Of a stretch of 64,000 nucleotides of DNA, positions 29,226-64,000 are shown in pieces. Under the pieces are notes generated by a model. The model had not been told where the DNA came from, ran no database searches, and saw nothing but the letters and a program-made list of their open reading frames with translations. The position numbers were made by a program, and so were the translations under genes. This DNA is from Plumapathes pennacea (lineage: Eukaryota; Cnidaria; Anthozoa; Antipatharia; Myriopathidae). The DNA lies in NCBI GenBank assembly GCA_964036295.1, contig OZ038463.1, positions 10,407,274 to 10,471,273 on the forward strand, in the 5' to 3' direction. Position 1 is the stretch's first letter, and each line of letters opens with the position of its first letter.

Positions 29226-29405
29226 TATATCATTATACCCATCAAACGTAATCACGCCTCGAAGGTGTGTAGCCGGAGTGCCGGTCATGTCATAATAGCC
29301 GAAGGTTGCTCCTTTGAACACAGTTTGACTTAGCGCGCCGAGCGAGAACAACTCGCACAGTTCGGACCTTCAGTACCTTTTGATCTCTCAGCAAAACAAA
29401 CCAGA

Positions 29406-30254
29406 ATGGGCAAGGCAGAGGAGGGACATATCAAGCGACCGATGAATGCGTTTATGGTGTGGAGTCGTGGCAAGAGAAAGCAGTACGCCGCACAACACCC
29501 GAGGATGCACAACTCCGAGATCAGCAAACGGCTCGGTGCCGAGTGGAAAATGCTCTCAACTGAAGAGAAGGAGCCTTTTATCTCTGAGGCGAAGCGACTA
29601 CAGGCTGTGCACATTCAAGAACACCCCGACTACAAGTACAAGCCGAAACGCCGCAAGTCCAAGACAGTGGCGAAGAAAGAGTTAGCGGCGCCCATGTTTT
29701 CACCTTTCAGCGCCTCAATGATGGCAGTAGAGAAATTCACAACGAGTCAATTGCCACAAACAATAGGTCATTCAGGCGCTTTGTCAGCAGACCCAATGTA
29801 TTCCAAAATAAATGGCTCGGCAGCGTTTCACCACTCCGTTTCTCCGGGATACCCAGTTATCTACCCAAGTGTTACGTCCGTTAACACGCACTCCGGTTCT
29901 CCCTCGCCAAGACAGCTTTTCGCCGGATCAATAGAGTCGACACACTCTTTCCGCGCCGCGGACGTGATCAATGGCCGACCCGCGTACAGCATGAGTCATC
30001 ACCAGCCTTTCCACCAAGCACCAATGCCTCTGCAGTTGCCGTCAAGAATCTCCGCGGTGGACGAGACCAGGGCCGCAGCCAACACAAACAGCTCTTCCAG
30101 TCCTCCAGCATCCAACGCTGACTCTGCAGCGTCGAAGGCAAACGGTTACGTTCACAGCTCCGTTCACAGCACAAGCGAAATGAGCTCCCAACGAGTGTGG
30201 CAACCGCAACAAGAACTGTCCAGACCAGTCGCCTATGTACCGGTATTACTTTAA
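29406..30254 (+). CDS. SoxB: SoxB-group HMG-box transcription factor, single exon
   Basis: The intact frame encodes 282 residues from ATG 29406 to TAA 30252-30254. An HMG box lies at about residues 8-87: it opens [20 protein letters not shown], continues with [17 protein letters not shown] and ends [15 protein letters not shown]. The [11 protein letters not shown] core and the basic tail after the box are typical of group B Sox proteins, which bind ATTGT-type sites in the minor groove and control neural and progenitor fates in animals (family knowledge). The C-terminal two thirds is rich in Ser, Pro and His, low in predicted structure, and ends [10 protein letters not shown]; it probably holds transactivation or repression segments. 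Lack of introns is usual for SoxB genes. Which cnidarian SoxB paralogue this is cannot be settled without a tree. Confidence 0.95.
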
Positions 30255-37074: not shown

Positions 37075-37268
37075 TTAACCTTTTCACTCCCAAGTTCAAA
37101 ATGCAAATTCTCCCAACTTTTTAAGAGAAAATTGTATGAGTGATGTAATGAGAATTGATAGTTTAATCAGTTATCACCTGAGCAAGGTACCAAAAGCCAA
37201 GTTCTCCTTACTGTATGATATATTTGTGCTGCCGAAATTGAGGGAGAAAATTGAACTTCATCACTTCA
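37075..37268. repeat. TTAACC/TTTCACTCCCAAG family copy 2
   Basis: It begins TTAACCTTTTCACTCCCAAG, then shares GAGAATTGATAGTTTAATCA, TGAGCAAGGTA and ACTGTATGATAT with the other copies. The right terminal repeat is worn away. Confidence 0.6.
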
Positions 37269-38193: not shown

Positions 38194-41100
38194 TCAGAGC
38201 GGTTTGAAAGGTCCATGGTGTTGCTGCCTGATCCAAATACTGTCAATCACTTCACCGTCCCAGGCCTTTATCTGTTCCCAGTACAAGTGAGTGGCGTTCA
38301 CGATCTTCAGTTTGCCGAATCCAGCGTTGCCAGGAAACCATTTCCGAAAAGCAGACCAGGGACCTGTGAAGGAAAGATGACTGCTTGAGCGAGCAGACTG
38401 GTTCGAGTCTACAATCAGGGAAATCGTTTTTTTTTTTTTTTTTTTCACACTTGCAAAATTTGTCCCATATTCCTTCCCAGTCCGGAGTTTTATATATTGC
38501 AGTCAGGAATATCTAGCGCAAAGCTGTTTGTAGTACTGCACAATCCAAGATCATGTTTTGTCAATGGTTCGGTCCACTTTATCACGCCTTTTTCTGGCTG
38601 CTTAACCTTTTCACTCCCAAGCTATAAAAATACAAATTCTCCCAACTTTTTGAGAAGAAAATATACGAGTGATGCAGGGAGAATTGATAGTCTAAACAGC
38701 TTTAATCTGAGCAAGCTATCAAACAACAAATTCTCCATACTGCAAGATCTATCTCCGGTGAGAAACTGAAAGAGAAACCTGAAGTTGATCACTCTTGGAA
38801 GTGAAAGGGCTAACCTTTCCCCATAAAGCGTGACATGAAAAGATCGCCGTAATAGGTCTACCCATAATACTTTAACACTACTTCGCGTACCGGTAGCCTT
38901 GAACTAAATGGAACTAACAAATAAGACCCACGAGAACACGAGGACGCCCACTGTACCTCTTGAACGCGGCCTGCTCTCGTTTCACGGAAGACGCGGCAGA
39001 CGAAATGACTGACAAAAGTAATCTGATTGGTCACCGACCATTATCGGGCTTATTCGCGTTAATGTATTGCCATTGCGTATATATTTTTGATCTATTGGAC
39101 GCCTATTACCATTCCAAAATTTCACGTACAAATTTGGGATCATTTGGTTTTAAAAGTTCAGAGTTTAACAATATTTACTAAAGTCTGCTCTGTACCATAC
39201 ATTTTACTGCTACTAACTGCTTATGAAGTGAAAGGACGCATTTGCCCTTAATTAACGTCCGAATGGTTCTTGATTGACTATCGATATTTGTTCTGTAGTC
39301 ACTGCAGTGTGCAAATCCAAGGCAAGAGACCATAAGGTAAGAGAGGGAGACTCGTGGCGCGCCGGAATCGTAACTAGTTATGTCAGAGGAACGAAGCCGA
39401 ATGAAAAGAGCAATTGTGTTCAGTGCTAATCTCTGCATGTCCAGAGTTAATGCAAATCTGAGTAGGACTAAAACGCTCGAACCATCAGCTTACACAATGA
39501 ATATATACGACGGCACGTTTTTACCAGCACGCCGAGACAGACCAAAACGAGGTCTCATTCCATTGTAACTTGTGATTGCTGTGCACTTGTATTGGTCGTA
39601 TGGCAATGGCATCATCGGCCAATGAGAATCAAAAACCAAAATTCATATTGGGGTCTACTGACGCAAGCAAACGGCCATGGCTTTTTCTCGCACTGCTAAT
39701 TGGTCCCTTCTTCTAAGTAAAACACTAATGCAAGTTATATTTTGGCTTCTGTTCGGATGAAAGTGTTTTCTTGGCCTCTTTGGCTGGCGCTGCGATATAA
39801 CTTTGAGTTCGGTTTTAAACTAGAGCCCATCGAAAACGCACTATGCACTTTTACCCTTTCACTACCGAGAGTGATCAACTTCAAGTTTTTCTTCAGCAGA
39901 ATTCAACAGTTTTTCACCATATATCTATCATACAGTAAGGAAAACTTGGCTTTTGATACCTTACTCAGATGAAATCTGTTTAAACTATAGATTCTCACTG
40001 CATTACATTTATTTTTTGACAGAATCTGCATTTTACAACCGTCAGTGTCAGGTTGTCGTCTTACCTCCCGGTCCCAGCATGGGGTTGACACAGATTCCGT
40101 ACGCCTCGTTGCATCCCGCCGCGCCAGCGATCAGGTGGACAGGGGCCTTAGGGTCGTTATAGTCATGCGCAGTGACAGTGTCGTTGTAGACAGGCCAAAG
40201 TCGTTCGTACGAGTGTTCATGGGCTTGAAGAACCAAATCCACACCATAACGGAAAAACAATGGCTCGAGACTTCAACAAAGAAGATAAAATCAGTGAGAG
40301 AGAAATGTATGCAGCCGGGCGGGTGGGCGTCTGTGTGTCATTGGGCCATCCATTAATTTTCGAAACAAATTTTTAGGCATCGTGATAATCAGAATCGGAA
40401 AATGACAAATATGTCACCCATCAGAAAAATGTACCATTGACAAAAATACGACCTCGTAATCGAGATTCCCCACACTTCCCACATTCCCCACCTCTGGGGC
40501 AACCAGGTCTGACAAATCCCCGGGATTGCCCGGGGAGGGGACGGTGGGGGTGGGGGGGGGATAGATAGTTACAGCTGGAATTGATCGATGCATTATTTTT
40601 ATTTTGAGGTGTAATTTCCCTTCTGCTGGATATTATCCTCCTGCCATAAATTATTCCATTATCAGCAGCAAGATTGGCCAAATCAGAACAGCATCCCTAA
40701 AAAACGTGCCCCCATCATGACATGTGTCACTTACTGACTCCTGACAACAGACTTGAGTGTTGTGCAATCATCGTTGTCGATGTTGGAGCAGTACATGGGG
40801 CGGTGACCGAATGCAACAACCCAGGGGTGGCGGGCACGGTTTTCGGGTTTGTTAGCTTCCTTTAGATCGTTCTCCAGCCACACTAGCTGCTCCCACACTG
40901 AACCATTCGTAAAGTAGACTTCAGTAGAATAGCTGGGAAACAGTAAGAGCAAAACGATATTTTATAACACATTTAAAAGGCTTACGACAACATCGTACGA
41001 CTTTCTTCGTGTCGTACGCAACAGACGTAACCAAACTGCAGGGTGATTAACACGATGCAATTCGTGTCATAAGAAAATTGCATGCAATCCTTTAATTGTA

Positions 41101-42767
41101 AGTGAAACCAGACTTAAATTTCTTTTGTATATATGTGTTCACCAACCTTTCTTTTGGGCAAGACACTCACTTATTTGAGAGGCAAAGTGAAGTGGGGTGG
41201 GAACCGATTTGATCCCCAGCTGTCCCGGGCTAAAAATTATTGGCAGCAAACGTCAACAAATCAGCCCCCCAGCCCCTCTCCCCTGGATGGCTACTGTTAA
41301 GTGCAATTGAAAACTTTTGCAGGAATCTCACCTGATGAAGTGAACCTTGGAGATGTCAAAGCTATACCACATCCAGTCAGTCTTTACTGGCCAATCCATA
41401 CGGGGCATAGAAAAACGGTATCGATAATGGCTGAAGTTGAATGGGATCTCTGTACAGGAACATTCACATTGACAAATAAAAAACAAAAGTATATATTAGT
41501 GTGTTTGAGACATACATTGTATGTGTGTAGAGGTGCATGATTGTACAGTTGATAGCACAAATCAAAACATGCACTGTCCTTTATTACAGTTCTAGTACTG
41601 TTGTATTTCATCTCACCATGGTTCCCAACACACGTCATGTAAGGTATCCAGGCAGCTATATCCTGAATTCGGTTCATAAACTGGTCACCATTCTGTCAAA
41701 AAAAAAGACACAGACATCTGTATAGTCAAGAAATAAAATAACATATATTTTGCAAGGTTATCTTATGCGAAAAACAGGGGGAAAATAATTACTGCATATA
41801 TGTGGGAGGTTCAAGATATCTGCTCCGATGCAAGAGAGTTGGCAAATATAACCCATTGTGGACTTGCTTTTGTATACCTGTGTCTAACAGATACAATTTC
41901 AGGGACAATGTATATAATATCATTGTCTACTCCAAATAGAGATCTTTACAGCTGACAGTATATGTAATCATGGTAACAGGATAATTATGTGAAGTGCAGT
42001 ATATATAGAAAAATAATGAAAAGAACCCTGAAGCCCAACTTACCACACCACCATTTGAATTTAAATCATAAGCAAAGTCACCAACATGCAGGACAGCTGT
42101 GTTGTTTCCAGACCTCGCTTCCTGAATGAGCCGTTTCAAGCTTGGTGATCCATCGATTCTCCCCATGTCTCCATAAACCAAGAATTGAGGTGACCAATCC
42201 TGAAAAAAGAAAGTTGCAGCTTTGCATGGGAAAGGGAGAGGAAGAAATACTATCCAGAGCCCAACTAAAAACAAACATTACAATCAACTTCATTTAAGAT
42301 GGACACCCTCAGGATTGATCTTACGAGAGTTCAGTAGAGTAAACAACTGACAACACAGCAGAGATCGCCCCTGGCTGCATGGTATAATAAAATAAATAAA
42401 TAAATATCAGTATCTAAAGCCGAGGAATAGGGAGTGGTTGCCCAATTCTCCCGAGCCAGAGGGTCACGTTTAAATGTTCGACCGGTGGAATACCCATAGA
42501 AAGAAGACAGGTTCAGAAGGGAAAAACTGTTGGAGTTGCCTCCCCGGATGGAAATACTTCCGACTACTGCTGGCCATAGGAATTGAACCCCCACCTCTTG
42601 GCTTGGAGCTTTATTATGGACTCAGGTGGCCACCCCCCAGACCGCTTGGCCACCAAGTTAGTTAAGTCCCATAAAGGGAATATTGCAGGTTGGTAACATC
42701 TTGCTTAGCCTAAAGTTGGTCAGATTTTTTTATTACACTCCTGGCACTAACTGCTACTTTTTCTTTT

Positions 42768-42801
<34 letters not shown>

Positions 42802-44346
42802 TGCAGATTGGGAGAATAGCTATACACTCCCAAGCAGGTAAACAGATCTTGGGTATACATGTAGGGTCAGATACAATAAACGTACCATCCTGTACTAGTG
42901 TACTGTATATAGAAACACTGTAGTAGGTCCTACCTCATCAACCCTCATGGCAGTGAATTCAAATCCTTTGCTTGAATTAAGACCACTCTGCACATAGTAG
43001 GAGTATTTATTTCCTGGGATCAAGTCCTGATGATTGAAAGTGAAAGAATAATGAAAAATGAGGCAAAATTGTATGTGGATGAAGAGTAAACTGCAGATTA
43101 CTGTAAGCTATACCAACAAGGATCACTGTCTTAATTATCGCTTAAACCCTGGCATGCAAACAGACTCCCAAATCAAGCCAATTCAACCCAAGTTTGCAAA
43201 GTTGTGAACTTGCATGCAGGGTGGCCAAACAGTACTTAAGTTCCAAGCGAATAGCCAAGTTGCAAGAATACCATCCAAATGCCGTAACAAAGCCGATGCA
43301 ACCTCGGCTTTGCATTGACCTTAGTGGCCAAACAATGAAAAACTTAGGTTGACTTTGTTGAAATTTTTAGCTCCATCAAAGTGCAGTCAGTTCATGTCAA
43401 TCTGAACCAAGTGGGTGGTCAAGTGTTGACTTGACTTGGGGAGTCTGTTTGGCCAGGGCTTTATGCTGTTCTTGATGAGAGTCGTATTAAAACAGATCAC
43501 ATGGAATGCTGCAAGCATGCAACATACAGCATTATTTTAAGTACATGTAGTGCTGTTAGTACAGTACCAGGACCTGTTTATTGTTTAGGTGCTAATTGTG
43601 TTTTCTTTCTGGGGCATAATTATGTATTTGTTGCACAAGGAAGGGTGTAACAATATGTCAATCATCACCCAATCACACAGACAATCAGTCAAGGTAGACC
43701 AATATGTGCTTGACAACTGATGTCTGCAGCCAGCAGAGCCAAGTAATGACCAACAAATAAAAGGAAGGAATAAAAGGAATGATTTGTTACAACAGGGACT
43801 GTACAGTAGAACTAATTGAGCTAATTGTTCATCATTTATTGCTCAGCTGTGAAATTATACTGTATGGATCTTTGGTGTCAGATTACAGTAATCTAAGACG
43901 GGCGGTCAGAGCTGGTCCCGAGGGCGTCCGCTTTATAGGGAGTTGATAAAATAATTTAAGGTCACATGCATGATCCACTCCTTCAATGCAGCCATCTTAA
44001 TTACCTTCAATCCAACTCTATGAATATACTTGAGTCCTTGAGGATTGCCTTCTGTGAATCGAACAAACTGCCCTGTGGCCTTCAGAGAATAGTTACTTGG
44101 GGCCGGTCCGTAGTACACGGTAGAACTCATGGCCAATTCCTTGAGGGCTGATGTTGACCACATAATCGTCATCTGTCCCGGTGAGTCGCCATAAGCGATG
44201 TGAATCTGTTCTGGACCGTGTTGCTGAGTGTCGGCAGACACATCACTAGCATCTTGCCGAAAAGAAGCCGGGATGACTAACGAAAAGTGGACAGATAAGC
44301 AAATCAAGAAGCTGTAAAAATACAAGAACCGGCAAAGCAGCTCCAT
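38194..44346 (-). CDS. ACP7: Purple acid phosphatase, ACP7-like, secreted
   Basis: Eight exons agree in phase, in transcript order 44346-44005, 43026-42934, 42199-42044, 41692-41617, 41449-41332, 40932-40735, 40270-40065 and 38363-38194, giving 452 residues, close to human ACP7. Residues 1-26 are a hydrophobic signal peptide. The first ~145 residues are the fibronectin-like domain of the family. The metallophosphatase motifs are complete: GDMG (Asp156), GDFAYD (Asp186, Tyr189), GNHE (Asn221, His222), GHRP (His305) and AHEHSYE (His345, His347). These bind the Fe(III)-divalent metal pair that hydrolyses phosphomonoesters (family knowledge). The GNHE codon is split by an intron; choosing the donor after CATG at 41617 restores the motif, whereas reading on does not. 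The last exon matches the family C terminus (GPWSAFRKW... with NATHLYW). The localisation is secretory or lysosomal by inference. Confidence 0.93.
38602..38814. repeat. TTAACC/TTTCACTCCCAAG family copy 3
   Basis: It starts TTAACCTTTTCACTCCCAAG and ends AAGTGAAAGGGCTAA, with the shared interior GAGAATTGATAGTCTAAACA. It lies in the last intron of the ACP7-like gene. Confidence 0.65.
39851..40036. repeat. TTAACC/TTTCACTCCCAAG family copy 4 (opposite orientation)
   Basis: TTACCCTTTCACTACCGAGA and GTGATCAACTTCAA match the left end of copy 1, and the interior AGATTCTCACTGCATTACAT is the complement of the copy 2-3 interior. It ends about 30 bases from the donor of the exon at 40065-40270. Confidence 0.6.
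40480..40562. repeat. G/C-rich hairpin-prone stretch in an ACP7 intron
   Basis: CCCCACCTCTGGGG and CCCCGGGATTGCCCGGGG palindromes are followed by a run of G-tracts ending GGGGGTGGGGGGGGG. A G-quadruplex or hairpin could form on one strand. It is noncoding. Confidence 0.5.
42762..42800. repeat. Poly-T tract
   Basis: A run of more than 30 T in an intron of the ACP7-like gene, in the same sense as a poly-A tail of a minus-strand insertion; no retroelement body was recognised next to it. Confidence 0.9.
43147..43458. repeat. 312-bp MITE in ACP7 intron 1
   Basis: The left end CCCTGGCATGCAAACAGACT (then CCCAAATCAAG) pairs with a right end reading CCCTGGCCAAACAGACTCCC on the reverse strand, with a small indel. 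The interior is rich in repeated AAGTTG, CAAGT and CCAAACA words. Noncoding. Confidence 0.75.
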
Positions 44347-44436
44347 ACTACCCGACGCAACCGGTAAACATTGCGTATGATGATGATCATGTGATCGAAG
44401 TGGCGCAGAGGAGGTTCGCTTTGACGGACCTACATG

Positions 44437-44519
44437 AAGGATTACCGCAGAACGATTGCATCGCGGGCGTGCGAAGGCGCACAGGGGCGCCCGCGATAAA
44501 ATCGTCTTGCGGTATCCTT
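44437..44519. repeat. Foldback element in the ACP7 promoter
   Basis: AAGGATTACCGCAGAACGAT...ATCGCGGGCG and CGCCCGCGAT...ATCGTCTTGCGGTATCCTT are near-complete inverted repeats of about 30 bases with a short GC-rich loop. It lies about 90-175 bases upstream of the ACP7 start codon and recurs in the duplicate at about 61747-61830. Confidence 0.65.
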
Positions 44520-44996
44520 GGTGTAAGATCAATATTTAGACGTTTAAAACAGGCCTAAGTCTCGTATTCAAGTTTTTGCCACTTTCACCAGGACAAGGCA
44601 TTCTGTATACTCTTTCCTGTCTGTCATGAAGTTACGTTGGTCCCCGGATGTTGTTACCCGGATATTGTAGATACGTGCAGCTAGCGTTAATTATACGTTG
44701 AGTCACAGGCTCTATACATTCGGATAATCAACAGTAAAAAAATGTTTAGTCAAAAACTGGAATGTGTCGTTGAGGATGAAAAATCGCAGTGTAAAAAACT
44801 AACTTTTAATTATTGATTGTGATCATCCAGGTTAGATTAGTCTCCAGAAAGGCTGTTGTTGATGACTGACGTTTTTACTCCCTGAGTGGAAGTTACCTTC
44901 AGACTAAAGCAAAGAAGAAGAAGAAGTCACAGAAACGTCCAGTGATCATGACTCCACGCTACCCTACATCAGAGGCACTGAGATTTTATTCTCCGT

Positions 44997-46063
44997 TCCT
45001 GGGGTCTGTCTGTCACACAGTGATATGTGATACCTTTGTTCTTACGAAAGGTCTTCGGCAACTATTAAACCTACAAACTGGCTAAATATGTTTAGTTGTG
45101 CGTTATCTTACCTCTCTCCGAACGTCAGCTCGCTGCGCTCGCTGGAACCGGTAAAAATTTCGGGGCGAAGAAGAGAAGAAAAAAGAAGGAAAGGCAGGAA
45201 ACTCTGACGCGACCGAGGGTAACTCGGCGACGAAAATCTCAGCAATCGACGAACCAGTCGCGAAGAAACTCAGGCACGAGTCATTTGCATAAATATTCTT
45301 TCCATTCATCTGATACAATTTACGGTCTGTCCAGAGAGTGTCGAGCAATTTGCCGAAACGATGTCTTTTCGGCAGCGAAATGATGCTCGACCCAGCAGAC
45401 TCGGCAAAACCTTTCATCAGTCCCCCACCCCAGGGCAATATTTAGCACTACCAAAAACTGGGTGGTCTCCGGTCATCTGATAGCAAAAAATTAACTGCAG
45501 GGATAGGGGCGGTTCCAGCGAGCGGTTCCAACCGGTTCCAGCGAGCGTAGCGAGGTTTAATAAGGGGGTTTAAGAAACCTAGGACGGCGACGGCAACGCG
45601 AGGAACCAAAAAGTAGTATCTCTGTTTTCCCTATGTCTTTGTAACTTTGCCTATTCTTAGGTTGCTCAATTTGTTCCGTTTTTGCCTAGGTTCTATTGAT
45701 TTCATCGTTTCCTACTAAGAAGAACGACTGCCGTTATTTTATCGAACTGTCGTCCACGTCCTGACAACGACGTAAAAAAGAAGCATTAGAAGTCGCACGC
45801 GAGAGCACGGCGACCCCGAGAACATGTCAATTTCAGATATTCACGCGCTTCTTTTGTCTTCTGTGATTAGTTTTATTGTTTCACCGACGTCGCTGTCGTC
45901 CTCTCGCGTCCTATATCTTAAAGTCCCTAGTTGCCGAAGACCGCCGTTCGGCGAACGACCAAAATCCCCATACATTTCTTTATAATCGCCAACGGTCATG
46001 TTCCTTCGTATCACATATCACTGTGTGACAGACAGACAGACCCCGGAGCCTGGGCTGCCTGTG
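44997..46063. mobile_element. ~1.06-kb terminal-inverted-repeat insertion
   Basis: The left end carries GGGGTCTGTCTGTCACACAG followed by TGATATGTGATAC; the right end is its reverse complement (GTATCACATATCACTGTGTG then ACAGACAGACAGACCCCGG). The matching site in the second duplication copy (62330/62331) reads straight through from TTATTCTCCG to TGACACATTTCAG, so the boundaries are set by comparison of occupied and empty sites. No transposase is recognisable; the longest frame (45103-45438, -, 111 codons) has no known domain. It is a non-autonomous element. Confidence 0.75.
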
Positions 46064-48010
46064 GTGAAACATTTCAGTTTTCAACTGATTCAAGATCTAT
46101 TTCAGTCTGTTGATTATTCGACTATGCGAGTGTCTTGATTACGATATATTCTTCCCCATTAGAACCTGTGACTGGCAACGAAAAATTAAATAAGCTGGCC
46201 AGCTTTTTCCGTACACTAGGAATTTATACTCCATGACACATTTCAGTTTGTAACTGAACATTTCATTTCTTTTGATTATTCGAATGCGAATGGCCTGACT
46301 TTTATGAGATTTATCAACTTCCCCATTATTACTCAACGTAAAAGTAAAAGCTAGCCAGTTTATTTTTGTCCGCTGGGATTTTATGTCGATTATTTGAATG
46401 CGAATACTCTGTGAGATACATGATTTGCATGTAACTTCCCTATTAGAACGTGTGACCAGTCAACCGTGTTCATACTGAGAAAGTGCAATGAGGTATTTTT
46501 AGAATTTGTCATTAGAGCGTAATTTGCTCGTAATCCTTGCTAACTAAACGCGGGAAGGTAAACCTCGCGAAACAAAATCGCTACGAGGTTGCACTCAAAC
46601 TCAATTCATTAGATTATGATTTATATGGTCTTAGTGAATGGTAACGTATTCATGATGGCCAAAAGTGTTGAGATGGAATAGGCTACTTTCACAGTCATGC
46701 GCAGTTCATGAGGTGCAGATTTTAGCGGAACACCAGACGATAAAACATGGAGGGTAGAGTGTATAACTTATTCTATTGTTCTAAAGCAATAATATAGACA
46801 CAAAATCAAGTAGCAGAGAAATTTACTTAACAGACACTCGTTTATGTGGGGAGTATAAGCGCTATTTTTATTTTCCAAATGCGCATAATTGTGAAAGTGG
46901 CTTATTATACTTCCCCCTCTCCCCCAGATCAATGTTAAAATATCAGCCTATCACACACCAACTCAAACCAACATTGATTTAGGGGGAGGGGGAAATTATA
47001 GTTACCTTTGATGTTAATTGTTCTATTTCAGTACAAAATAAATAGCCTTGGTATAAAGCATGAGTTGTCTATTCATATTCAATAAGCATTTTTACAATAA
47101 CACTTCAGTTTCTGGCTTTGTGATTGGTTAATTTTCATGATCAACAAGAGGACAGACACAAAATCGAGTGCTGACGACAGTGATTTGGACGGAGAAGGTG
47201 AATTCAGCTTCAATCTTACCTCAATTCTTGCAAAAGCGACATTCGACACTCGGCAAAGCGCCTCGTGGATCCACATTTTCTTGACAATGTTATGACGCGT
47301 TTCATGATCAATAAGAGGACAGACACATAAAAAACTGACGTCAATTTGTTAATGTCCCAACAAATTTTGACCATGAAGCAGTCGTAGATTATTGTAGTTT
47401 GGCCTTCTGCAGTCACGAAGTATGTGTCGGAACGCCTTGTTACATATTATTTAACAGAAAGTGCTATCGCTTGCTAAGGCAAACAATTTTTACTTGCGAA
47501 CTATTCTAAAGCAAAGTACACTCTTTCAGTATTCAAATGTGCAATTTTCCCAAAACAACGAACAATACTGCTATATCTGAGACCAGAAACGTAAATTGGC
47601 ATCAGTTCTAACCTGTTCACACTTGCGTATAGTCTTGACAAATTATGCCGGTAATTTACTTATTATAATAACAATTATTATTATTAGAGCCGGTTAAATA
47701 CTATGGGATTTCCCGCGTAGTAGCTACAACTTCGCGGATACGCGGACAAGTTCATTTCTCTACCTCACAAATTGAAAGATCGCTGCGTTTTACTGATGAC
47801 GCGCGAGTGACTTCACTGACCTCAAACCACAATTAAACAGCAGACCAGGAGGGAGAAAACAATGTGTCATAAATATACTCTAATTTATACCAACAGAACC
47901 TGTTAGTCTCCCTCATCACCGTGTCCATTCAGTGAAGTTGGACTAATTTCTGCCATTGAAGGAGGCTGAGAGGATATAGTGCCGCTTGGGTAAGCATAAT
48001 TTATGTGTTT

Positions 48011-51000: not shown

Positions 51001-51110
51001 GCAGTACTGTAATTGATCGACTGGCGACGAAATGAAAGCCACCTCGAAAGCAAAGCGCTTATATAGCTACAGCTATAGTCACGCTGCAAAATTCTGGTAG
51101 GTTTTATCAC
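48011..51110. other. Intergenic between duplication copy 1 and the second TIR-family copy
   Basis: AT-rich unique-looking DNA. A minus-strand frame at 49926-50129 starts with a signal-peptide-like stretch (MAFIGCMLMCLRLSLVIVLF) but has no donor or partner exon, so it is not called. No repeats of note otherwise. Confidence 0.4.
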
Positions 51111-51113
51111 AGG

Positions 51114-51511
51114 CAGCCTAGGCTCCGGGGGTCTGTCTGTCTGTCACACAGTGATATGTGATACCTTTGTTATTACGAAACATGACCGTTGGCGATTATA
51201 AAGAAATGTATGGGATTTTGATCGTTCGCCGAACGGCGGTCTTCGGCAACTATTAAACCTAAAAACTGGCTAAATATGTTTAGTTGCGCGTTATCTTACC
51301 TCTCTCCGAACGTCAGCTCGCTGCGCTCGCTGGAACCGGTAAAAATTTCGGGGTGAAGAAGAGAACACAAACAGAGGGAAGGCAGGCAACTCTGACGCGA
51401 CCGAGGGCCACTCGGCGACGAAAATCTCAGCAATCGACGAACCAGTCGCGACGAAACTCAGGCACGAGTCATCTGCATAAATATACTTTCCATTCATCTG
51501 ATACAATTGAT
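51114..51511. repeat. Second copy of the 44997-46063 element family (partial)
   Basis: It shares GTCTGTCTGTCACACAGTGA, GGTCTTCGGCAACTATTAAA, CTCTCCGAACGTCAGCTCGC and the following ~200 bases with the insertion at 44997-46063, and also retains a CATGACCGTTGGCGATTATA segment that the latter carries only on its right arm. The matching right end is not seen. Confidence 0.75.
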
Positions 51512-52570
51512 GGTCGGACATATGCTTACCAACTACTGGCTCCAAAATGTTCTTCCGAGCGATCTTGCAATGCTATGGTTCTTGTTCTTTTCCCTCCCTT
51601 TCCTTTCTGTTACGCTTCATGCCATTCTTGGTCAGCAAGTAGCTCTTGTCAGCGCACGGGTTGGACTTCATAGTGGATATCGTACAGTATACACGCGGGA
51701 TCAATGTAATATAATTCATATATCAGATATAACGCTTTCTTCATCGCTTCTAGAGCTCGCCATTGCCGTACGAGTCCAAAAACACGGGAAAACAGCGAGA
51801 AAAGCGCAGACAAACCTATAAATAAGAACTAAGAAGAGGTGCCGAGCCGAAACGCGCCACTCCTCTTACGTCACAGGTCCCAGTCTCCTACTTTGCGCGG
51901 CCTGGATTTTATATTTCCGATTTCAAACGCGGGAAAAAAATATAGGAACGCTTCGGAAAGGCTTTCTTTTGGGCATAAGTTGCTTAGATTACTTCCTAAT
52001 TTCGTATAAAAATGTATCCTCTGAAGGCTTATGTGCACTTTATTCTTTGAGAACGTGCTTGGCAGACTGTATGAATTAATTTGACGTGCCGACCGTGGGA
52101 ATTACGTACTTCGTCACGCAATCGGCTCATTTTTCAACGCAAAAGTATAACACACCCCATACTTTTTCTCCTTCCTTTGCGTGTAGCACTTGACTTCGAA
52201 GAAAAGACTGAGTCAACATTTCGGTAAAACAAAGGCTACTCTTGTTGGAAGTACCACGGTAAAAGTCCCAACAATGGCAGAGCGAGGGGGTATCTGCGAT
52301 TATCGTATTTCTAGTTAATATATAAAATTGTGTTCGGAGTTCGGCCGCCATGTGGTCCGGGCATGTAGTCCACAGAGCGATGGCTTTTGACCCACTCTGC
52401 GCAGCGCGCCGAAGCTCATAAATATGCATGATTGAGTATATTGAGACATTCCCCCCGGAATACTCACCTCCTTGTGTGACGAGCCAATAGACTATACTTA
52501 CGCCTGCCAATCCCTACTTTAGATCAGTAGGCATATGTACCTTTTAGGTACCTATTTTTTGCTTATACAG
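51512..52570. other. 5' region of the TPR-CHAT gene
   Basis: No exon could be fixed. A polypyrimidine tract with acceptor TTTTTTGCTTATACAG ends at 52570, so a spliced upstream exon or 5' UTR is expected here. A 127-codon minus-strand frame (52127-52510) has no recognisable domain. Confidence 0.45.
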
Positions 52571-55500
52571 GAGGAAAACCACCAACTGGAAGCAATGGAT
52601 GAATTTGGTCTTCACTACTACTCTAGAGAATGGGAACAATGTGCGCAACATGAAGCATTCCTTGCAATCCAAAAAGAGATTGGAGACAAAAACGGACAAA
52701 AATCAGCTTACGGCTTCCTTGGTGTTTGCTATCACTATCTCGGCCAATACAACAAGGCTATTGAGTATCTGAAAATGTACCTTACTATCACAAAAGAGAT
52801 TGGAGACAAAGAAGGAGAGGGAACAGCATATGGCATTCTTGGTTGTTGCTATCGCTCTCTCGGCCAGTACGACCAGGCTATTGAGTATCAGAAAATATTC
52901 CTTACTATCGCAAAAGAGATTGAAGACAAAGACAGAGAAGGAACAGCTTACAGCATTCTTGGTGTTTGCTATTACTCTCTCGGCCAATACAACAAGGCTG
53001 TTGAATATCTGAAAATGTACCTTACTGTCGCAAAAGAGATTGAAGACAAAGACGGAGAAGGAAAAGCTTACAGAAATCTTGGTCGTTGCTATTACTCTCT
53101 CGGCCAATACAACAAGGCTGTTGAATATCTGAAAATGTACCTTACTGTCGCAAAAGAGATTGAAGACAAGGACGGAGAAGGAATCGCTTACAGCAATCTT
53201 GGTGATTGCTATTACTCTCTCGGCCAGTACAACAAGGCTGTTGAATATCAGAAAATGCACCTTACTATCGCAAAAGAGATTGGAGACAAAAAAGGAGAAG
53301 GAAAAGCTTACGACAACCTTGGTCGTTGCAAGTACTATCTCGGCCAGTACGACATAGCTATCGAGTATCAGAAAATAAGCCTTACTATTGCAAAAGAGAT
53401 TGGAGACAAAGACGGAGAAGTAATCGCTTACGGCAATCTTGGTGATTGCTACGAGTCTCTCGGCCAGTACGACAAAGCTATTGAGTATCTGAAAATGTGC
53501 CTTGCTATCGCAAAAGAGACTGGAGAAGAGATTGGAAATAAACGCAGAGAAGAAACAGCTTACGAAAGTCTTGGTGTTTGCTACGAGTCTCTCGGCCAGT
53601 ACAACAAGGCTATTGAGTATCATAAAATACGCCTTTCTATCACAAAAGAGATTGGAGACAAAGACAGAGAAGGAACAGCTTACGGTGATCTTGGTCGTTG
53701 CTATTACTTTCTCGGCCAGTACGACATAGCTATTGAGTATCAGAAAATGCGCCTTACTATTGCAAAAGAGATTGAAGACAAAGACGGAGAAAAATCAGCT
53801 TACGGCATTCTTGGTGTTTGCTATCTCTCTCTCGGTCAGTACGATAAGGCTATTGAGTATCTGAAAATGCGCCTTGCTATCACAAAAGAGATTGGAGACA
53901 AAGACAGAGAAGGAAAAGCTTACTGTGATCTTGGTCGTTGCTATTACTCTCTTGGCCAGTACGACATAGCTATTGAGTATCAGAAAATGAGCCTTACTAT
54001 TGCAAAAGAGATTGAAGACAAAGACGGAGAAAAATTAGCTTACGGCATTCTTGGTGTTTGCTATCAGTCTCTCGGTCAGTACGACAAGGCTATTGAGTAT
54101 CTGAAAATGCGCCTTGCTATCGGAAAAGAGACTGGAGACAAAGACGGAGAAGGAACAGCTTACGGCAATCTTGGTGGTTGCTATCAGTCTCTGGGCCAGT
54201 ACGAAAAGGCTATTGAGTATCATAAAATGAGCCTTACTATTGCAAAAGAGATTGGAGACAAAAACGGAGAAGGAGCAGCTTACGGCAATCTTGGTTGTTG
54301 CTTTCGCTCTCTCGGGCAGTACAACAAGGCTATTGAGTATCTGAAAATGTGCCTTACTATTGGAAAAGAAATTGGAGATAAAGGCACAGAAGAAACCGCC
54401 GACAGTCTTGGTGGTTGCTATCAGTCTCTCGGCCAGTACAACAAGGCTATTGAGTATCATAAAATGTGCCTTTCTATCACGAAAGAGATTGGAGACAAAG
54501 ACGGAGAAGGAAAAGCTTACGGCAATCTTGGTCGTTGCTTTTGCTCTCTCGGGCAGTACAACAAGGCTATTGAGTATCTGAAAATGTGCCTTACTATTCC
54601 AAAAAAGAATAGAAACAAAGATGGAGAAGGAGCAGCTCACGGCAATCTTGGTTTTTGCTATCACTCTCTCGGGCAGTACGACAAGGCTATTGAGTATCAG
54701 AAAATGTGCCTTAGTATCGCAAAAGAGATTGGAGACAGAAAAGGAGAAGGAGCAGCTTACGGTAATCTTGGTTGTTACTATTACTCTCTTTACCAGTACG
54801 ACAAGGCTATTGAGTATCAGAGAATAAGTCTTGTGATCGCCAAAGAGATCGGAGACAAAGACGGAGAAGGAACCGCTTACTGCAATCTTGGCAGTTCCTA
54901 CCGTTCTCTCGGCCAGTACGACAAGGCTGTTGATTATCTGGAAATGTGCCTTACTATTGCAAAAGAAATTGGAGACAAACGCCAAAAAGGAAGCGTTTAT
55001 GGCATTCTTGGTGATTGCTATCACTTTTTCGGTCAGTACGACAAGGCTATTGAATATCAGAGGATAAGTCTAGTTATCGCAGAAGAGGTTGGAGACAAAC
55101 ACGAAGAAGGAAAAGCTTACTGCAGTCTTGCTATGTGCTATCGGTCTCTCGGCCAGCACGACAAGGCTATTGAATATCATAGAATATGTCTTGCTATCAC
55201 AAAAGAGTTTGAAGACAATCACTTGGAAGCAACAGCTTACGGCAATCTTGGTGGTTGCTATCACTCTCTCGGCCAGTACGACAAGGCTATTGAATATCTG
55301 ACAATATCTCTTACTATCAACAAAGATATTGGAAATAAAGATGGAGAAGGACACGCTTACGGCGGTCTTGGTGTTTGCTATCAGTCTCTTGGCCAGTACG
55401 ACAAGGCTATTGAGTATCAGAAAATAAGTCTTGCTATCGCAAAACAGATTGGATACAAACACGGAGAAGGGGCCGCTTACGGCAGTCTTGGTTGTTGCTA

Positions 55501-57708
55501 TCGCATTCTCGGCCAGTACGACAAGGCTATTGAGTATCACAAAATGTGCCTTACTATCGCAAAAGAGATTGGAGACAAAGACGGAGAAGGAAAAGCTTAC
55601 GGCTTACTTGGTGGTGGCTATCACTCTCTCGGCCAGTACGACAAGGCTATTGAATATCTGAAATTACGTCTTGCTATCGCAAAAGAGATTGGAGACAAAC
55701 ACGGAGAAGGAAGCGCTTACTGCGATCTTGGTGGTTGCTATCACTCTCTCGACCAGGAAGACAAGGCTATCGAGTCTCTGAAAGTGAGCCTTACTATCGC
55801 AAAGGAGATTGGAGACAAACACGGAGAAGGAAAAGCTTACGTCATTCTTGGTGGCTGCTATATGTCTTTCGGCCAGTGCGACAAGGCTATTGGGTATCTT
55901 AAAATGAGCCTTACTGTCGCAAAAGAGATTGGAGACAAATGCGGAGAGGGAGGCGCTTACGGAGGTCTTGGTAATTGCTATCACTTTCTCGGTCAGTATG
56001 ACAAGGCTATTGAGTATCAGAAAATGTACCTTACTAACGCAAAAGAGATTGGATACATACGCGGAGAACGATTAGCTTACTACAGATTTGGTGATATATA
56101 TTCCGCTCGCGGCCAGTATGGAGATGCTGAGTGGAATTTAAGAAAAAGTGTAAAGTGCCACCATAAGCTGCTTGAGACTGTACCAAATTGGGATGAAAGT
56201 AAAATTTCTTTTACAGAGCAATTTTCGGGCACGTATAAAAATCTTGTTAAAACTTTTCTGTATCAAGAGAAAAGAGATGAAGCTCTTTTTGTTGCTGAAA
56301 ACGGACGTTCAAGAGCTTTACTTGACCTTTTGTCCACCTGTCCTGTTAAATACGAATCCAGAGTTAAAAGCCTCAACGAAATCTGTGAGGTGGTTAAAGC
56401 CCTGGAATGTACAGTCCTCTTCTTTGCGTTACTTGACAATGATATTTGTACTTGGGTCATACAGCCAAATGATGATGTCTTGTTTCATCACAAAACTTGT
56501 ACTGAAGATGTAGACTCTCTTGTTAACAAGGCTATAAAGTCGATACAACCAAGCGAGGATGACACATGCGAAGATCGCTCACTGTCGTTTCTTTACTCAA
56601 AAGAGTTGTCAAAACCCACTAAGAAGAAACCAGAATCGATGCAAGCTCGTGCCGCCATGTCTGTCGGTTGGACTGTTCAACAACTAACATCATCTCAGTC
56701 CAGGACCCCACAATCCGCATCTACGAAAAAGCAGAACGTAGCTATAACAACAGTGTCCGGACCTCCAGGCAAGGCTGAGTCCTCTAAAACAGCGGACGAT
56801 TTAAAAATGAACGGTTTGCTAAAAGATCTTTACCGGATTCTTCTGGAGCCTGTTCGGCAATATGTGGTGGGGTCGCAGGTAATTGTCGTCCCTGATGGAC
56901 GACTCGCTCTGGTTCCATTTGCCGCCCTCATGGATAAGAACGGGCACTTTGTGGCAGAATCCTTACGAGTAAGACTAATTCCATCACTAACAACAGAAAG
57001 ATAATCAAAGAGCGTCCAGAAAAATCACCAGGCCGGTCTAAACCCTTGATAGTGGGAGAGCCAGAAGTGGGCACAGTTAAGTACAAAGGTAAAGTTACTA
57101 CTGCGCCAGGACTACCATGCGCAGCGAAAGAAGTGGAATTAATTGGTAAAATTCTACAAGTTCAGCCCCTTGTGGGAAATAAGGCGACCAAGAAGAGGTT
57201 TCTACATAGAGTTGAAAATGCCAGCTTGATTCATGTTGCAGCACACGGAAACAAAGATAGGGGAGAGATCTTGCTTGCCCGTCCTCCTGGAATGACTGGT
57301 ATTCTCCAGGCTACAGATCTCATGCTTCTCGTTTCCGATCTCGAACGTAAACGCATAAACGCAAAGTTGGTTGTTCTTAGTTGCTGTCACAGCGGCTGTG
57401 GTGACGTCATGAAAGGAGAGGGTGTAGTCGGTATAGCTCGTGCGTTTCTTGGAGCTGGAGCTAAAGCGGTTCTTGCAACATTGTGGGCGGTTGACGATAA
57501 GGCCACTTTGTGTTTTATGTTTCGTTTCTACGAGTACCTTAAAGATGGCGAAAGTGCAAACGTGGCACTCAATAAAGCCATGTAAGACGTGAGAGAACAC
57601 AAGGGGTTCGAGCATCCCCGCTACTGGGCTCCTTTTGTCCTCCTGGGTGAAAATGTGATTCCTTTTCCAAAACCACGATGCAGTAAATGTCCAGTAGTGG
57701 CCCTATGA
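52571..57708 (+). pseudogene. TTC28-like TPR-CHAT protein gene, frame broken twice
   Basis: The frame opens after an acceptor at 52570; the first Met of the exon is 52595 (MDEFGLHYYSREWEQC). About 28 TPR units of 40 residues follow (consensus near LGQYDKAIEYLKM.LTIAKE and GDKDGEG.AYGNLG.CY), then an alpha-helical linker (AENGRSRALLDLLS), a Ser/Lys-rich spacer and a CHAT domain. The first frame stops at TAA 57002-57004, inside the CHAT N-terminal strands; the fold continues in the frame starting near 57005, so a net one-base deletion is implied. That frame keeps the catalytic-type His (HVAAHG, 57244-57246) and Cys (LSCCHSG, 57382-57387), then has an in-frame TAA at 57583-57585, after which family-like residues (HPRYWAPFVLLG) run to TGA 57706-57708. 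CHAT domains are caspase/separase-clan proteases and TPRs bind partners (family knowledge). It could be a young pseudogene, a null allele or an assembly error. Confidence 0.8.
52679..56110 (+). repeat. 120-bp coding tandem repeat array (28 TPR units)
   Basis: Each 120-bp unit contains CTCTCGGCCAGTACGACAAG, GCTATTGAGTATC and GCAAAAGAGATTGGAGACAA. About 28 LGQY-type units can be counted, plus a last degenerate one (ARGQYGDA). The unit starting near 53515 carries a four-codon insertion and the one near 54390 lacks a codon; both keep the frame. The high nucleotide similarity makes the long antisense frames of this region artefacts. Confidence 0.95.
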
Positions 57709-60579
57709 GCCCTATAAAATCTGAGGGTTTGACTTTCTTTGTGCGTGTGTTTCTGATCAAAATTACGTAGATCACTGCACAGGCAAAACATGGATCTCAC
57801 AAGCAAACTCCGGATTTTGAAGACAGGCTAGGATGAAAATCGTAACATGAGCCATTTGTAGTGGAAAGTATTCATTTTATTTGTAATGGATAGAGAATCA
57901 AGGTAAAAAGAAAGGCGAATTTCACAATTACGCACATACGTATATGCGTAAGGGAATCCACGCCTCAGCTAGTTTTGGGTTAATACTCACCCTCTTATGA
58001 GAGTTGGACAGTGTAGAAAACGTCACCAACGCTTACATTAGTTTAAGCTATAAATAACAAGGTACAACCATTACAGCTCTTTTTTACTCATATTTTTGTG
58101 GGCGATATATTTTCAGGAAGCTTTAATCTTGAAATCACACTTGATCTGTTAAAGGTTATTAAGTAACATTTGAACGTATGTTTTTGATGTAGGTATTTTT
58201 GATATATTCAGGGTAACTTATCTAATAGAGAGCATTTCAGTCAGTGTAATCTTACGGAGTTAATTCCCCATTGCGAAACAAGTTAGTCAGTACCGGGGTC
58301 AGTATCACCTCTGGGCGTAACAGAGTGTGTTCATAACCGTTCTCGTTCTCTCGATAACGCTCAACCAACGGCCCCTTGAGATTACACTGAGTTATGCGAT
58401 ATTTTTAGGGCTTTTATACCTGAGCCGCCAGGTTTGTTAGCCAGCGTTCTCTATTGGCATAAAATAAACTGTACTGTATGAGCAGATAAGTAAGACAGCA
58501 ATGTAAGGTAATAAACTCTATTGATTGTGGAGTTGATTAAATCCGTGAATGCAGTCTGAGCTTGTGATTGATGATTTGATGTTCTGACAGTCGGGGCTGA
58601 ACTCTAACAAACGCTGTTTGAGCGATAGTACCGTAGCATGTAGTGACGAAAGTCGTCACGAATACCTGGAACACCCTCCCAATTTAACTCTAAAGTTAAA
58701 CGCTGATAGCACTTTGTTAAACACAGTCTGGACATTTGTGAAACGTGTTCAATCAGGGGTGGAGCGGATCGAGCGTTTTGAGCGCCGAAGGCACCATACA
58801 CTGGGGGGGGGGGGCAACTCCCCCTCCCCCCCCCCCCCCCTTAGTGTATGGTGCCTTCGGCGCTCAAAACGATCCTGATTTCAATAAAGTGCCGGAATAG
58901 CCAAAATTACCATACTCTGGTGGAATGTGGAATCGTTGGCCTCTGAACAATTGGAATCAAGATTACCAGAAGGCAAGACATTTGCAATTTTCTGGTGTAC
59001 TTTCGATTTTACGCATCGGCGACTATTTCTAGTTGGAATCTTTGGAAAGGCAAGACTTTCGTCAGTTTTGTTCTCTGCACAATACCTAATTTATCCGACG
59101 CTTGTCTTCAGGCTTGTCAGGAGTCAGTTTTTCCGTCCGGAGAGATGTGACTTCTTTACCCAGATTCAATGAGTGTTTTCAACATCAATCAATATTCTGC
59201 ACTATACGGGTTTTTGCTGCTTCTGCATGGCGGTACCACAAATGCACAGACATGAAAGAGTAGTAAACAAATATTATTTACTAGATGAAATGATTCATTG
59301 TTGTCCAAAATATTAACGGTTGGACGTTTGGCTCGAAGAAATATGATAGGGCTGTTTAAACACCAAAGTTTAATCTAATCACGTAGTTGTGTTTTCTCCA
59401 AATTGTTTTTGCGCGCGATATTTTTAGCGCAACTTTAGGGAACTAGTCCTGTTCTCAAACCTGGAGTATGGTGGCCTATGACTGCCACTTGAATTTTCCT
59501 GAAAATTCAATAAAAATGAGAGGACATTTAACACCACAAGAAACTTTTACTACCCAAAAACTAGCAGGCAAAATATTATCTCAATGTGTCCAGAAAAAGT
59601 GAAGAATATACTAAACACAAAGTCAGGATTTCAATGACGCGAGCAAACTGAAAAGCATGCAGCAATCTTTAACAAGAAACAATCATAAGATTTACAATAA
59701 GAAACTCCGATGTTCTTATAGCAAATGAGAAAGCGAAAAATGAAAACGATCGTACCAGCGAAGAGCATACATATCATATTGCCACAAGGAGAGCAGAAAT
59801 CAACAGTTGAAGACGCTAACAATTTAGCGCGAAAGTAGTGATCTTTTTCACTCTTGCTCACGATTCGCGCGCGTTTTGTTTCAAAGCTTTATGGGATACT
59901 TGGACCATCCAACCTTTGAATTATGATATCGGTTTTGATGGTGATACCGTTTTCGATAGAAGTGTGAGAGAGGAAACACTGACAAATTCAGGGACATCTT
60001 ACGAGTAAATGTCACGGAAAAGTATATGACTAATATTGTCTTTAAAGTATATTGCTGACCTACAAAGGGTACTGAGTGCGAAGACTTTTCACATGGCTTC
60101 AGAATCCCTTTTTATGCTGGGCCTAAGGGCTAAGGGCCTAAGGGTTGAATCTACTAATGCGCTCTTGCGGTTTTTGTTCAATTATATTCACTTTCGCATT
60201 CTTCTTCCAGTTGTGTACAGTTTCTTTATTGCTGGTCAAAACTAAGCGAAGCAAAGCAAACGTAATCAAACGGTACCATTATTTCGACAAGTTAAAGTCG
60301 CTCCCGGCTGTCACGGGGTTTTCAACTGTAACATACGCTTGTTAAACAGCCGTGAGTTTACCAAAACCGCGGTGATAATAGCTCTAAATTACAACAATCC
60401 GACTGGAAATTAAGAAAGCCTGATAGAAGAAGTGCATTTTACTAAGAAGAAGAAAAACAGATAAGTACTGAAGCGCAGGCTAGATTAATTGTAGACTGTG
60501 ATTATAGAAACAACAGCAGTCAAACTGTCAAAATCAATTATGCATGACATGAGATAAGTCACGCATACCCTATATTTTG
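57709..60579. other. Downstream of TPR-CHAT, no gene recognised
   Basis: An AATAAA lies near 58449 and may end the TPR-CHAT transcript. Apart from the perfect hairpin at 58774-58871, I see only AT-rich DNA with short unsupported frames. Confidence 0.45.
58774..58871. repeat. Perfect 29-bp hairpin enclosing G12 and C15 runs
   Basis: CGTTTTGAGCGCCGAAGGCA (to 58802) and its exact reverse complement (58843-58871) flank a run of 12 G and, after CAACTCCCCCT, a run of 15 C. The G and C runs are themselves complementary, so almost the whole element can fold on itself. Looser pairing (AATCAGG/CCTGATT) continues outside. Confidence 0.85.
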
Positions 60580-60775
60580 ACCAAGCTCAAAATGTAGATC
60601 CTCTCAACCTTGTGAGGCAACCCTAAGCAAACATACAAGTGTTGTAGATATAATATATAGTTAAATCAGGTTTCATTTGAGCAAGGTTTCAAGGGCCAAC
60701 TTCCCTATACTGTATGATATTTTTCTGTTGGGAAACAGAAAGAGAATATTGATGTTGATCACTCTTGGGAGTCTC
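60580..60775. repeat. TTAACC/TTTCACTCCCAAG family copy 5 (worn)
   Basis: It shares CAAGCTCAAAATGTAGATCC-type left sequence, TTGAGCAAGGTTTCAAGGGC, ACTGTATGATATTTTTCTG and GATGTTGATCACTCTTGGGA with the other copies. The terminal TTAACC is lost. Confidence 0.55.
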
Positions 60776-61576: not shown

Positions 61577-61657
61577 TCACCATATGACTAACGAAAAGTG
61601 GACAGATAAGCAAATCAAGAAGCTGTAAAAATACAAGAACCGGCAAAGCAGCACCAT
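61577..61657 (-). pseudogene. Duplicated ACP7 signal-peptide fragment
   Basis: Reading the minus strand from ATG 61657, 25 codons copy the ACP7 signal peptide (VLLCRFLYFYSFLICLSVHF; Glu2 replaced by Val). The homology ends at the breakpoint within the codon after Val-Ile, where TGG and TGA follow, giving a 26-residue frame. It carries with it the ACP7 upstream region. No downstream ACP7 exon is present in the window, so it is a fragment, not a gene. Confidence 0.8.
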
Positions 61658-64000
61658 ACTACCCGACGCAAACCGGTAAACACTTGCGTAGGATGATGAT
61701 CATGTGACCGGAAGTGGCGCAGAGGAGGTTCGCTTGACAAACATAAAGGATTACCGCAGAACGATCGCATCGCGGGCGTGCGAAAGCATGCGTACAGGGG
61801 CGCCCGCGATGAAATCGTCTTGCGGTATCCGTGATGTGGGTCAATATATCAAGTATGTGAAGTTTGACGTTTGAAACAGGCCTAAGTCTCGTATTCAGGT
61901 TTTTGCCACTTTCACCAGGACAAGGCATTCTGTATACTCTTTTCTGTCTGTCGTGAAGTTTGTCCTTTACGTTGGTCCCCGGATGTTGTCACCCGGATAT
62001 TGTAGATACGTGCAGCTAGCGTTAATTATACGTTGAGTCACAGGCTCTATACATTCGGATAATCAACAGTAAAAAATGTTTAGTCAAAAACTGGAATATG
62101 TCGTTGAGAATGAAAAATTGCAGTGCATGAGAAAACTGGCTAGTAACTTTTAATTATTGGTTGTGATCATCCAGGTTAGCCTAGTCTCCAGAAAGGCTGT
62201 TGGTGACTGACGTTTCTACTCTCTGAGCGGAAGTCACCTTCAGACTAAAGCAAAGAAGAAGTCACAGAAACTTCCAGTGACCATGACTCCACACTACCTT
62301 ACATCAGAGGCACTGAGATTTTATTCTCCGTGACACATTTCAGTTTTCAAATGATTCAAGATCTATTTCAGTCTGTTGATTATTCGACTATACGAGTGTC
62401 TTGATTACGACATAACTTCCCCATTAGAACCTGTGACTGGCGACGAAAAATTAAATAAGCTGGCCAGCTTTTTCCTTACACTAGGAATTTATACTCCATG
62501 ATACGTTTCAGTTTTTAACTAAACACTTCAATTGATTATTCGAATACAAATGGCCTGACTTTTATGAGATTTATCAACTTCCCCATTTATTACTCAACGT
62601 AAGGTAAAAGCTAGCCAGTTTATTTTTGTTCGGTGGGATTTTATGTCCGATTATTTGAATGTGAATACCCTGACCATGAGATACATGGTGCAACTTCCCT
62701 ATTAGAACCTGTGATCAGTCAACCATGTTCATACTAAGAAAGTGGAATATGGTATTTTTAGAGTTTGTGTCATTAGAGCGTAACTCGCTCGTATTCCTCG
62801 CTAACTAAACGCGGAAGGAAGCCTCACGAAACAAAATCGCTACGAGGTTGCACTCAAACTCAATTCATTAGATTATGATTTATAAGGTCTTAGAGAATGG
62901 TACCCAGCTAGAATATATCATGGCCAAAAGTGTTGAGATGGAATAGGCTACTTTCACAATCAGGCGCAGTTCGTAAGGCGCACATTTTCTGACGGAACAC
63001 TAGACGATAAAACGTGACGGGAAGAGTGTACTGTAATAACATATTTTATGGTTCTATGCAATAATATAGACACAAAACTAAGTAGCAGAGAGATTTACTT
63101 AACAGACACTCGTTTATGTGGGGAGTATAAGTGCTATTTCCAGATGCGCATGGTTGCGAAAGTGGCTTATTATATCAACTCCCCCCTCTCCTCCAGATCA
63201 ATGTTGGAATATCAGCCTGGCGGCACACCAACTCAAACCAACATTGATTTAGGGGAAGGGGGAAATTATAGTTACCTTTGACGTTAATTGTTCTAATTCG
63301 AATTTAGTACAAAATCAATTATAGCCTAGGGATAAAGCCGGTCAAAGTCGTTTATTCATATTCAATAAGCATAGTCCCAACTAAATGACCATGAAGCAGT
63401 CGTAGGTTACTGTAGTTTGGCCTTCTGCAGAGTCACGAAATTATGTGTCAGAACACCTCGTGACATATTATTTAACAGAAAGTGCATATATATCGCTTGC
63501 TTAGGCAAACACTTTTCACTTGCGAACTATTCTAGAAGCAAATTACACTTTCAGTTTTCAAATGTGCACCTGATTTTCCCAGAAAAACGAGCGATACTGC
63601 TATATCTGAGACGAAAAATGCAAGTTGACATCAGTTCTGGCCTGTTCACCTGCATAGCTTGACAAATTATGCCGGTAATTTAAATCTTTTTGTATTATTC
63701 TTCGAGCCGCTTATATTCTGTGAGATTCCCGTGTAGTAGCTACAACTTGACGCGGACAAGCGGACAAGTTCATTTCTTTAACTCACAAATTGAAAGATCG
63801 CTGCTTTTCACTGATGACGCGCGAGTGACTTCACTGACCGCAAACCACAAGAAAAACAGCAGACCAGGAGGAAGAAAACGATGTGTCTTAAATATACTCT
63901 GATTTATGCCAACAGAACCTGTTAGTCAGAAATTGGACTGATTTCTGCCATTGAACGATGCTGAGGATATAGTGTCGCTTGGGTAAGCATTTATGTGTTT
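61586..64000. repeat. Segmental duplication, copy 2 (runs off the window)
   Basis: Direct-orientation copy of 44274-48010, without the 1.06-kb TIR insertion and without the ~250 bases at 47091-47355. A ~50-bp direct repeat (CGTTTGAAACAGGCCTAA.TC to CCACTTTCACCA) lies at 61537-61583 just outside the left breakpoint and again at 61870-61916 inside, where copy 1 has it once (44540-44590). Confidence 0.85.

Follow-up and report, generated by a model that had tools for sequence, protein, structure and literature searches.

The gene and its broken CHAT domain

The DNA analyzed here is a stretch of 64,000 nucleotides from the antipatharian Plumapathes pennacea (contig OZ038463.1 of assembly GCA_964036295.1, positions 10,407,274 to 10,471,273), referred to below as the window; all coordinates are counted from its first base. 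It carries a gene in which a long array of TPR repeats is followed by a CHAT protease domain, and the reading frame of this second part is broken at two places. The features of the gene are as follows:

52551..52570, plus strand: likely 3' splice site (pyrimidine tract and CAG) ahead of the coding exon
52571..57708, plus strand: coding exon, apparently single, of the broken TPR-CHAT gene, ending with TGA at 57706
52595..57001, plus strand: still-translatable open reading frame (ORF) of 1469 residues, comprising the TPR array, a linker and the first fifth of CHAT (start ATG inferred)
52706..56209, plus strand: 29 TPR units of about 40 residues each, 26 of them exactly 120 nt long
56816..56992, plus strand: N-terminal part of CHAT, profile positions 3-64 of 289 (PF12770, E 2.8e-9, 37.3 bits)
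57002..57004, plus strand: TAA closing the TPR frame after the frame change
57016..57582, plus strand: C-terminal part of CHAT, profile positions 70-263 of 289, holding both active-site residues (PF12770, E 1.1e-33, 117.4 bits)
57244..57246, plus strand: presumed catalytic His (CAC) of HVAAHG, aligned with the His of 8rot_B
57385..57387, plus strand: presumed catalytic Cys (TGT) of SCCHSG, aligned with the Cys of 8rot_B
57583..57585, plus strand: in-frame TAA within the CHAT domain
57586..57705, plus strand: 40 codons past the second stop, the first 22 of which form the CHAT end (profile to 289/289)

Position 52571 looks like an exon start because a good 3' splice site precedes it (pyrimidines at 13 of 17 positions followed by CAG, as read from the letters alone). 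The frame is open from 52523 to 57001, and the first ATG after the exon start is found at 52595. A processed retrocopy was considered as the source of the gene and rejected, given this splice site and the absence of any run of six or more A in 57709-60000.

The repeat array, described in the initial annotation as well preserved, was indeed matched by Pfam TPR_12 with an E value of 2.4e-228, and its frame is open throughout the 29 units. Units 7 and 15 are 44 and 39 residues long, respectively, and the last unit is divergent; at the DNA level the array appears as a 120-base tandem repeat of 28.3 copies (52672-56080).

Both CHAT parts scored above the curated PF12770 cut-off of 24 bits. They lie in two frames, that of the C-terminal part starting one base earlier than the TPR frame, and the domain is split between them at nearly adjoining profile positions (64 and 70). 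The second stop falls inside the domain: with TAA 57583 read as X, the C-terminal match extended to the end of the profile (289/289), its score rose from 117.4 to 141.4 bits and its end moved to 57651. The first 22 post-stop codons are thus demonstrably CHAT. The remaining 18 lie beyond the profile, and the 40 codons taken alone gave no Pfam match, so that of the "about 40 family-like codons" proposed earlier only the first 22 were substantiated. The histidine-cysteine pair was found intact, as had been claimed, with HVAAHG starting at 57232 and SCCHSG at 57379; the alignment of both residues to the solved CHAT protein 8rot_B is a weak match (E 0.0044). When the C-terminal part was used as a query against the PDB, 8rot and 8tl0 were listed, both as weak matches, and Csx29/Craspase was not among the structures listed.

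Two breaks, their possible rescue and their age

The split of CHAT places the frame break just before 57002, as originally proposed; the proposed loss of one base is, in terms of net frame change, equivalent to a gain of two. This change stops translation upstream of the CHAT active site, and the second stop removes the CHAT end even were the frame regained. CHAT in one open frame, which a working member would display, is therefore lacking, owing to both the frame change and TAA 57583. As sequenced, this copy cannot give rise to the protease.

It had also been suggested that the transcript may be rescued by an unseen mechanism, and the retention of the His-Cys pair and of the CHAT core would suit the regaining of an active TPR-CHAT protein, be it by frameshifting, through a tiny intron or by read-through of the stop. 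No such mechanism was found. Programmed -1 frameshifting was rejected, as 56900-57001, in which the frames overlap, contains no slippery heptamer, strict or relaxed. An intron causing the frame change was sought among donors in 56400-57000 and acceptors in 56997-57229, with a donor score of at least 7/9 and a pyrimidine tract of at least 9/17, and was likewise rejected: no pair of the right frame length was found at these thresholds. Near the break, six short GT-AG pairs (23-62 nt) with poorer sites do satisfy the frame length, the best donor (6/9) being common to a 32-nt pair (56969-57000) and a 44-nt pair (56969-57012). At 32 nt, the first of these would be unusually short for an animal intron, and its removal would delete part of the matched CHAT N-terminal part, which ends at 56992. 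Even then the stop at 57583 would follow, and a TAA with G after it, as here, is a poor read-through context. Separate translation of the CHAT half was rejected as well, since in its frame there is no ATG upstream of the His; the first one is at 57292. Rescue of an active protein is, in our view, very improbable.

A different possibility is that the gene is intact and that one or both breaks are artefacts of sequencing or assembly, for example where near-identical paralogues or haplotypes were collapsed. Multi-copy families rich in repeats are difficult to assemble, and the rest of the gene is open, with 4.4 kb ahead of the break carrying no lesion. To restore the gene, however, both breaks, independent of each other and different in kind, would have to be errors; one is an indel within a stretch of just three A, the other a substitution-type stop. 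Two other long ORFs in the window (BTB-BACK-PHR, 9034-10581, and Sox-type HMG-box, 29334-30254) are whole, which speaks against a generally error-ridden assembly. We regard an error as unlikely, though as an explanation that deserves to be kept in mind.

The explanation that we consider probable is that this is a recently inactivated anthozoan (coral-type) member of the TTC28-like TPR-CHAT family, either a young pseudogene or a null allele that still segregates. In the intact protein, as judged from its family, the long TPR superhelix would act as a ligand-binding sensor, and the C-terminal caspase/separase-like CHAT protease would be the effector, freed when the sensor is engaged. Two lesions in 5.1 kb correspond to a neutral divergence of about 0.15-0.37%, with limits of 0.02-1.3%; this assumption-laden estimate uses indel:substitution ratios set at 0.05-0.2 and a stop-giving fraction taken from the comparison of repeat units. 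Alleles of marine invertebrates often differ over a range that includes 0.15-0.37%, and a segregating null therefore appears as likely as a fixed young pseudogene. The earlier suggestion of a very young pseudogene or segregating null allele thus holds as the best reading, alongside the sequence error discussed above.

Two points weigh against recent inactivation. Both lesions are known from the assembled sequence alone; and the lesion-free 4.4 kb, together with the clustering of the lesions, is better matched by a TPR part that remains in use than by uniform decay. Both lesions lie in the last 13.8% of the coding exon, for which the chance probability is 0.019 (with n = 2 and the region picked post hoc), even though the earlier part is the more stop-prone: stop-giving single changes number 786 of 13,221 before the break and 67 of 1,746 in the C-terminal CHAT part. 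This placement of the lesions is the sole support for a protease-less TPR protein that is still in use. According to such a scenario the truncation is retained: the TPR part is still produced and serves as a decoy for, or an inhibitor of, intact TPR-CHAT proteins, while the untranslated CHAT decays; on this view the second lesion would be confined to a part that had already ceased to be translated. If the gene is transcribed, its mRNA would largely escape exon-junction-dependent decay, because the stop sits in the only coding exon recognised, and the product would be a 1469-residue TPR protein devoid of the protease, all of its codons being open and both lesions downstream. With only two lesions, however, the clustering is weak, a very young pseudogene would look identical, and the product would end in a CHAT fragment that is likely to misfold. 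A retained truncation is therefore improbable in our estimation.

Variation within the TPR array

Of the 29 units, those of exactly 120 nt (26 in all) were used to examine variation between repeats; length or divergence led to the exclusion of units 7, 15 and 29. The mean amino-acid identity among the 26 units was 66%, and 85% or more was reached in 3 of 325 pairs. Units 9 and 11 differ at only 5 of 120 bases, and units 10 and 12 at 8; this near-identity points to a recent duplication of two units. Among single changes relative to the consensus, 85 were synonymous, 281 non-synonymous and 3 of a kind that would produce a stop if taken in isolation, compared to 80.4, 268.1 and 20.6 expected from random placement, and the pooled ratio of non-synonymous to synonymous change (dN/dS) between repeats was 0.82, close to neutral. 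Thus the array stayed open even as its residues changed with nearly the freedom expected under neutrality.

The distribution of these changes along the unit was compared with the known ligand contacts of TPRs. In HOP co-crystals, TPR positions 2, 5, 6, 9, 12 and 13 are reported to bind the ligand (PMC1261162); these correspond to unit positions 40, 3, 4, 7, 10 and 11 in the present array. The non-synonymous proportion (pN) was 0.460 at these six predefined positions and 0.138 elsewhere, a result equalled by 1 of 100,000 label permutations, and mean entropy peaked at the contact register when all 40 circular shifts were compared. For the seven most variable TPR positions, a set taken from the same report (PMC1261162), the effect was weaker (379 of 100,000 permutations). 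Outside the contact set, the most variable unit positions (52706-56209) were 25 and 36, with an entropy of 2.25 each.

A hint of positive selection at the contact sites was also followed. The ratio of non-synonymous to synonymous proportions (pN/pS) was 1.84 at these positions, a value reached by 5,121 of 100,000 permutations. The hint was not borne out by a direct test against neutral placement, in which the amino-acid excess at the contact positions was not significant (P = 0.12, or 0.36 when each distinct change was counted once). Relaxed constraint explains much of the contact-face pattern, since the contact positions are variable in TPRs generally.

Five units (16-20) were modelled, with three further blocks of five units from the array serving as the alignment, and the mean predicted local distance difference test (pLDDT) score was 96.2. 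Each modelled unit consists of two helices, the first of which spans unit positions from about 35 round to 11 and is predicted to hold all six contact positions. The best matches among solved structures were TPR domains of LGN bound to partner peptides; TPR-like repeats from Podospora, described as nearly identical, were placed at ranks 30 and 32 among the structural matches. Contact-face variation and a superhelix modelled with confidence, to which the TPR domain of LGN comes closest, give the array the look of a binder, as would suit the decoy or inhibitor role considered above. A related scenario is that the locus is alive, its protease-less allele being kept for a TPR sensor that is hypervariable, from repeat to repeat, on its ligand-contact face; we hold this to be at least as improbable as the retained truncation.

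The pattern can be likened to that of fungal receptors with highly conserved repeats, in which, according to passages of PMC4986451, within-gene variation is similarly located on the concave ligand side. That report requires an inter-repeat identity of 85%, which few pairs reach here. No report of contact-face variation in coral TPR-CHAT arrays was found in the part of the open-licence literature that was searched.

Surroundings, relatives and meaning

The window is animal DNA, as indicated by its other genes:

9034-10581, minus strand: intact BTB-BACK-PHR ORF (Pfam)
29334-30254, plus strand: intact Sox-type HMG-box ORF (Pfam)
about 38200-44535, minus strand: purple acid phosphatase gene in pieces (matches to the N-terminal and C-terminal domains)

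The 5' end of the purple acid phosphatase gene is part of a segment (44273-48010) that is found again, in direct orientation, at 61584-64000 with 82-88% identity in three pieces, the right copy reaching the window end; the TPR-CHAT gene lies between the two copies. An unequal crossing-over model has been proposed for coral TPR-CHAT genes (in passages of PMC12314368). The flanking repeats suit this model, and any moving of the TPR-CHAT gene by them is purely hypothetical. No other TPR-CHAT gene was found in the window, where a tblastn search with a TPR query gave one row, at E 0.95.

Several smaller repeats were also observed. About 1.1 kb upstream of the exon, two pieces of 51101-51515 match parts of the duplicated segment, namely 45050-45327 (94%) and, inverted, 45928-46070 (88%). 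About 1 kb past the gene there is an inverted repeat (58771-58874) with 44-nt arms that are 93% complementary and a G run facing a C run at the loop. Repeats of about 190 bases, 68-83% identical and in both orientations, are dispersed at 3507-3710, 37075-37265, 38602-38804, 39854-40017 and 60581-60772, and perhaps represent a short mobile element. Two long ORFs overlap on opposite strands (13995-15086, plus; 14504-15022, minus), and the plus-strand one had no Pfam match.

By its domain architecture, the gene is assigned to the animal TTC28-like TPR-CHAT family, which is greatly expanded in corals, many stony corals having hundreds of copies. Coral proteins of this family display the same long N-terminal TPR array (PF13424/PF13176) and single C-terminal CHAT (PF12770), and the array length falls within the 31-3,832 residues given for them in PMC12314368; the likeness is drawn from architecture and published description, and the present copy differs in that its CHAT is broken. 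Human TTC28/TPRBK, compared by description, also has a TPR array followed by CHAT (PMC12314368, PMC9145168). As told in the relevant passages of PMC12314368, most animals have one or two copies and Nematostella 15, corals range from 6 to 362, and two Acropora assemblies contain 276 and 304; many coral copies are tandem duplicates, located in regions where copy number differs between haplotypes. The family, its coral expansion and the pseudogenisation of some copies are thus already published there, and for corals a part in recognition or cell death has been put forward (PMC12314368, PMC6208414). Given the copy numbers, a coral is also the likely source of a gene with this architecture.

The initial annotation had drawn a parallel to the bacterial type III-E systems. 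As a distant homology this stands; in architecture the close family is that of the animal TTC28-like proteins, which the annotation did not name. Csx29/Craspase shares TPR repeats and a CHAT domain with a His-Cys pair (H585/C627 there), but it is bacterial and bound to gRAMP/Cas7-11, and RNA binding activates its cleavage of Csx30 (all from passages of PMC9729208). In the flank stretches scanned, where both strands were not covered everywhere, gRAMP/Cas7-11, Csx30 and Csx31 had no Pfam match. A bacterial contaminant or CRISPR locus was rejected, as the flanks carry animal genes. A protein search of prokaryote and viral contigs confirmed no relative, and the C-terminal CHAT part gave one weak match to a phage record (25.6% identity). 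For the DNA pattern of the repeat, a first search returned nothing and a second three stretches of bacterial metagenome-assembled genomes. In the fungus Podospora, too, a repeat sensor is joined to a CHAT protease, and this TPR-bearing protease is reported to activate a gasdermin (PMC12881547); no gasdermin match was found in the window stretches scanned.

Taken as a whole, the locus is a broken member of a known family, and as a single locus it is ordinary, as the birth and death of copies is to be expected in a family expanded to hundreds in corals. Were the truncated form indeed retained, the caspase-like TPR-CHAT receptors of corals would include decoys or inhibitors, and the present copy is a candidate for such a protease-less form. 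The useful part is the array: its variation between repeats is located on the predicted ligand face, as is reported for fungal non-self receptors, and existing genomes thereby offer a test of whether coral TPR-CHAT proteins serve as recognition receptors.

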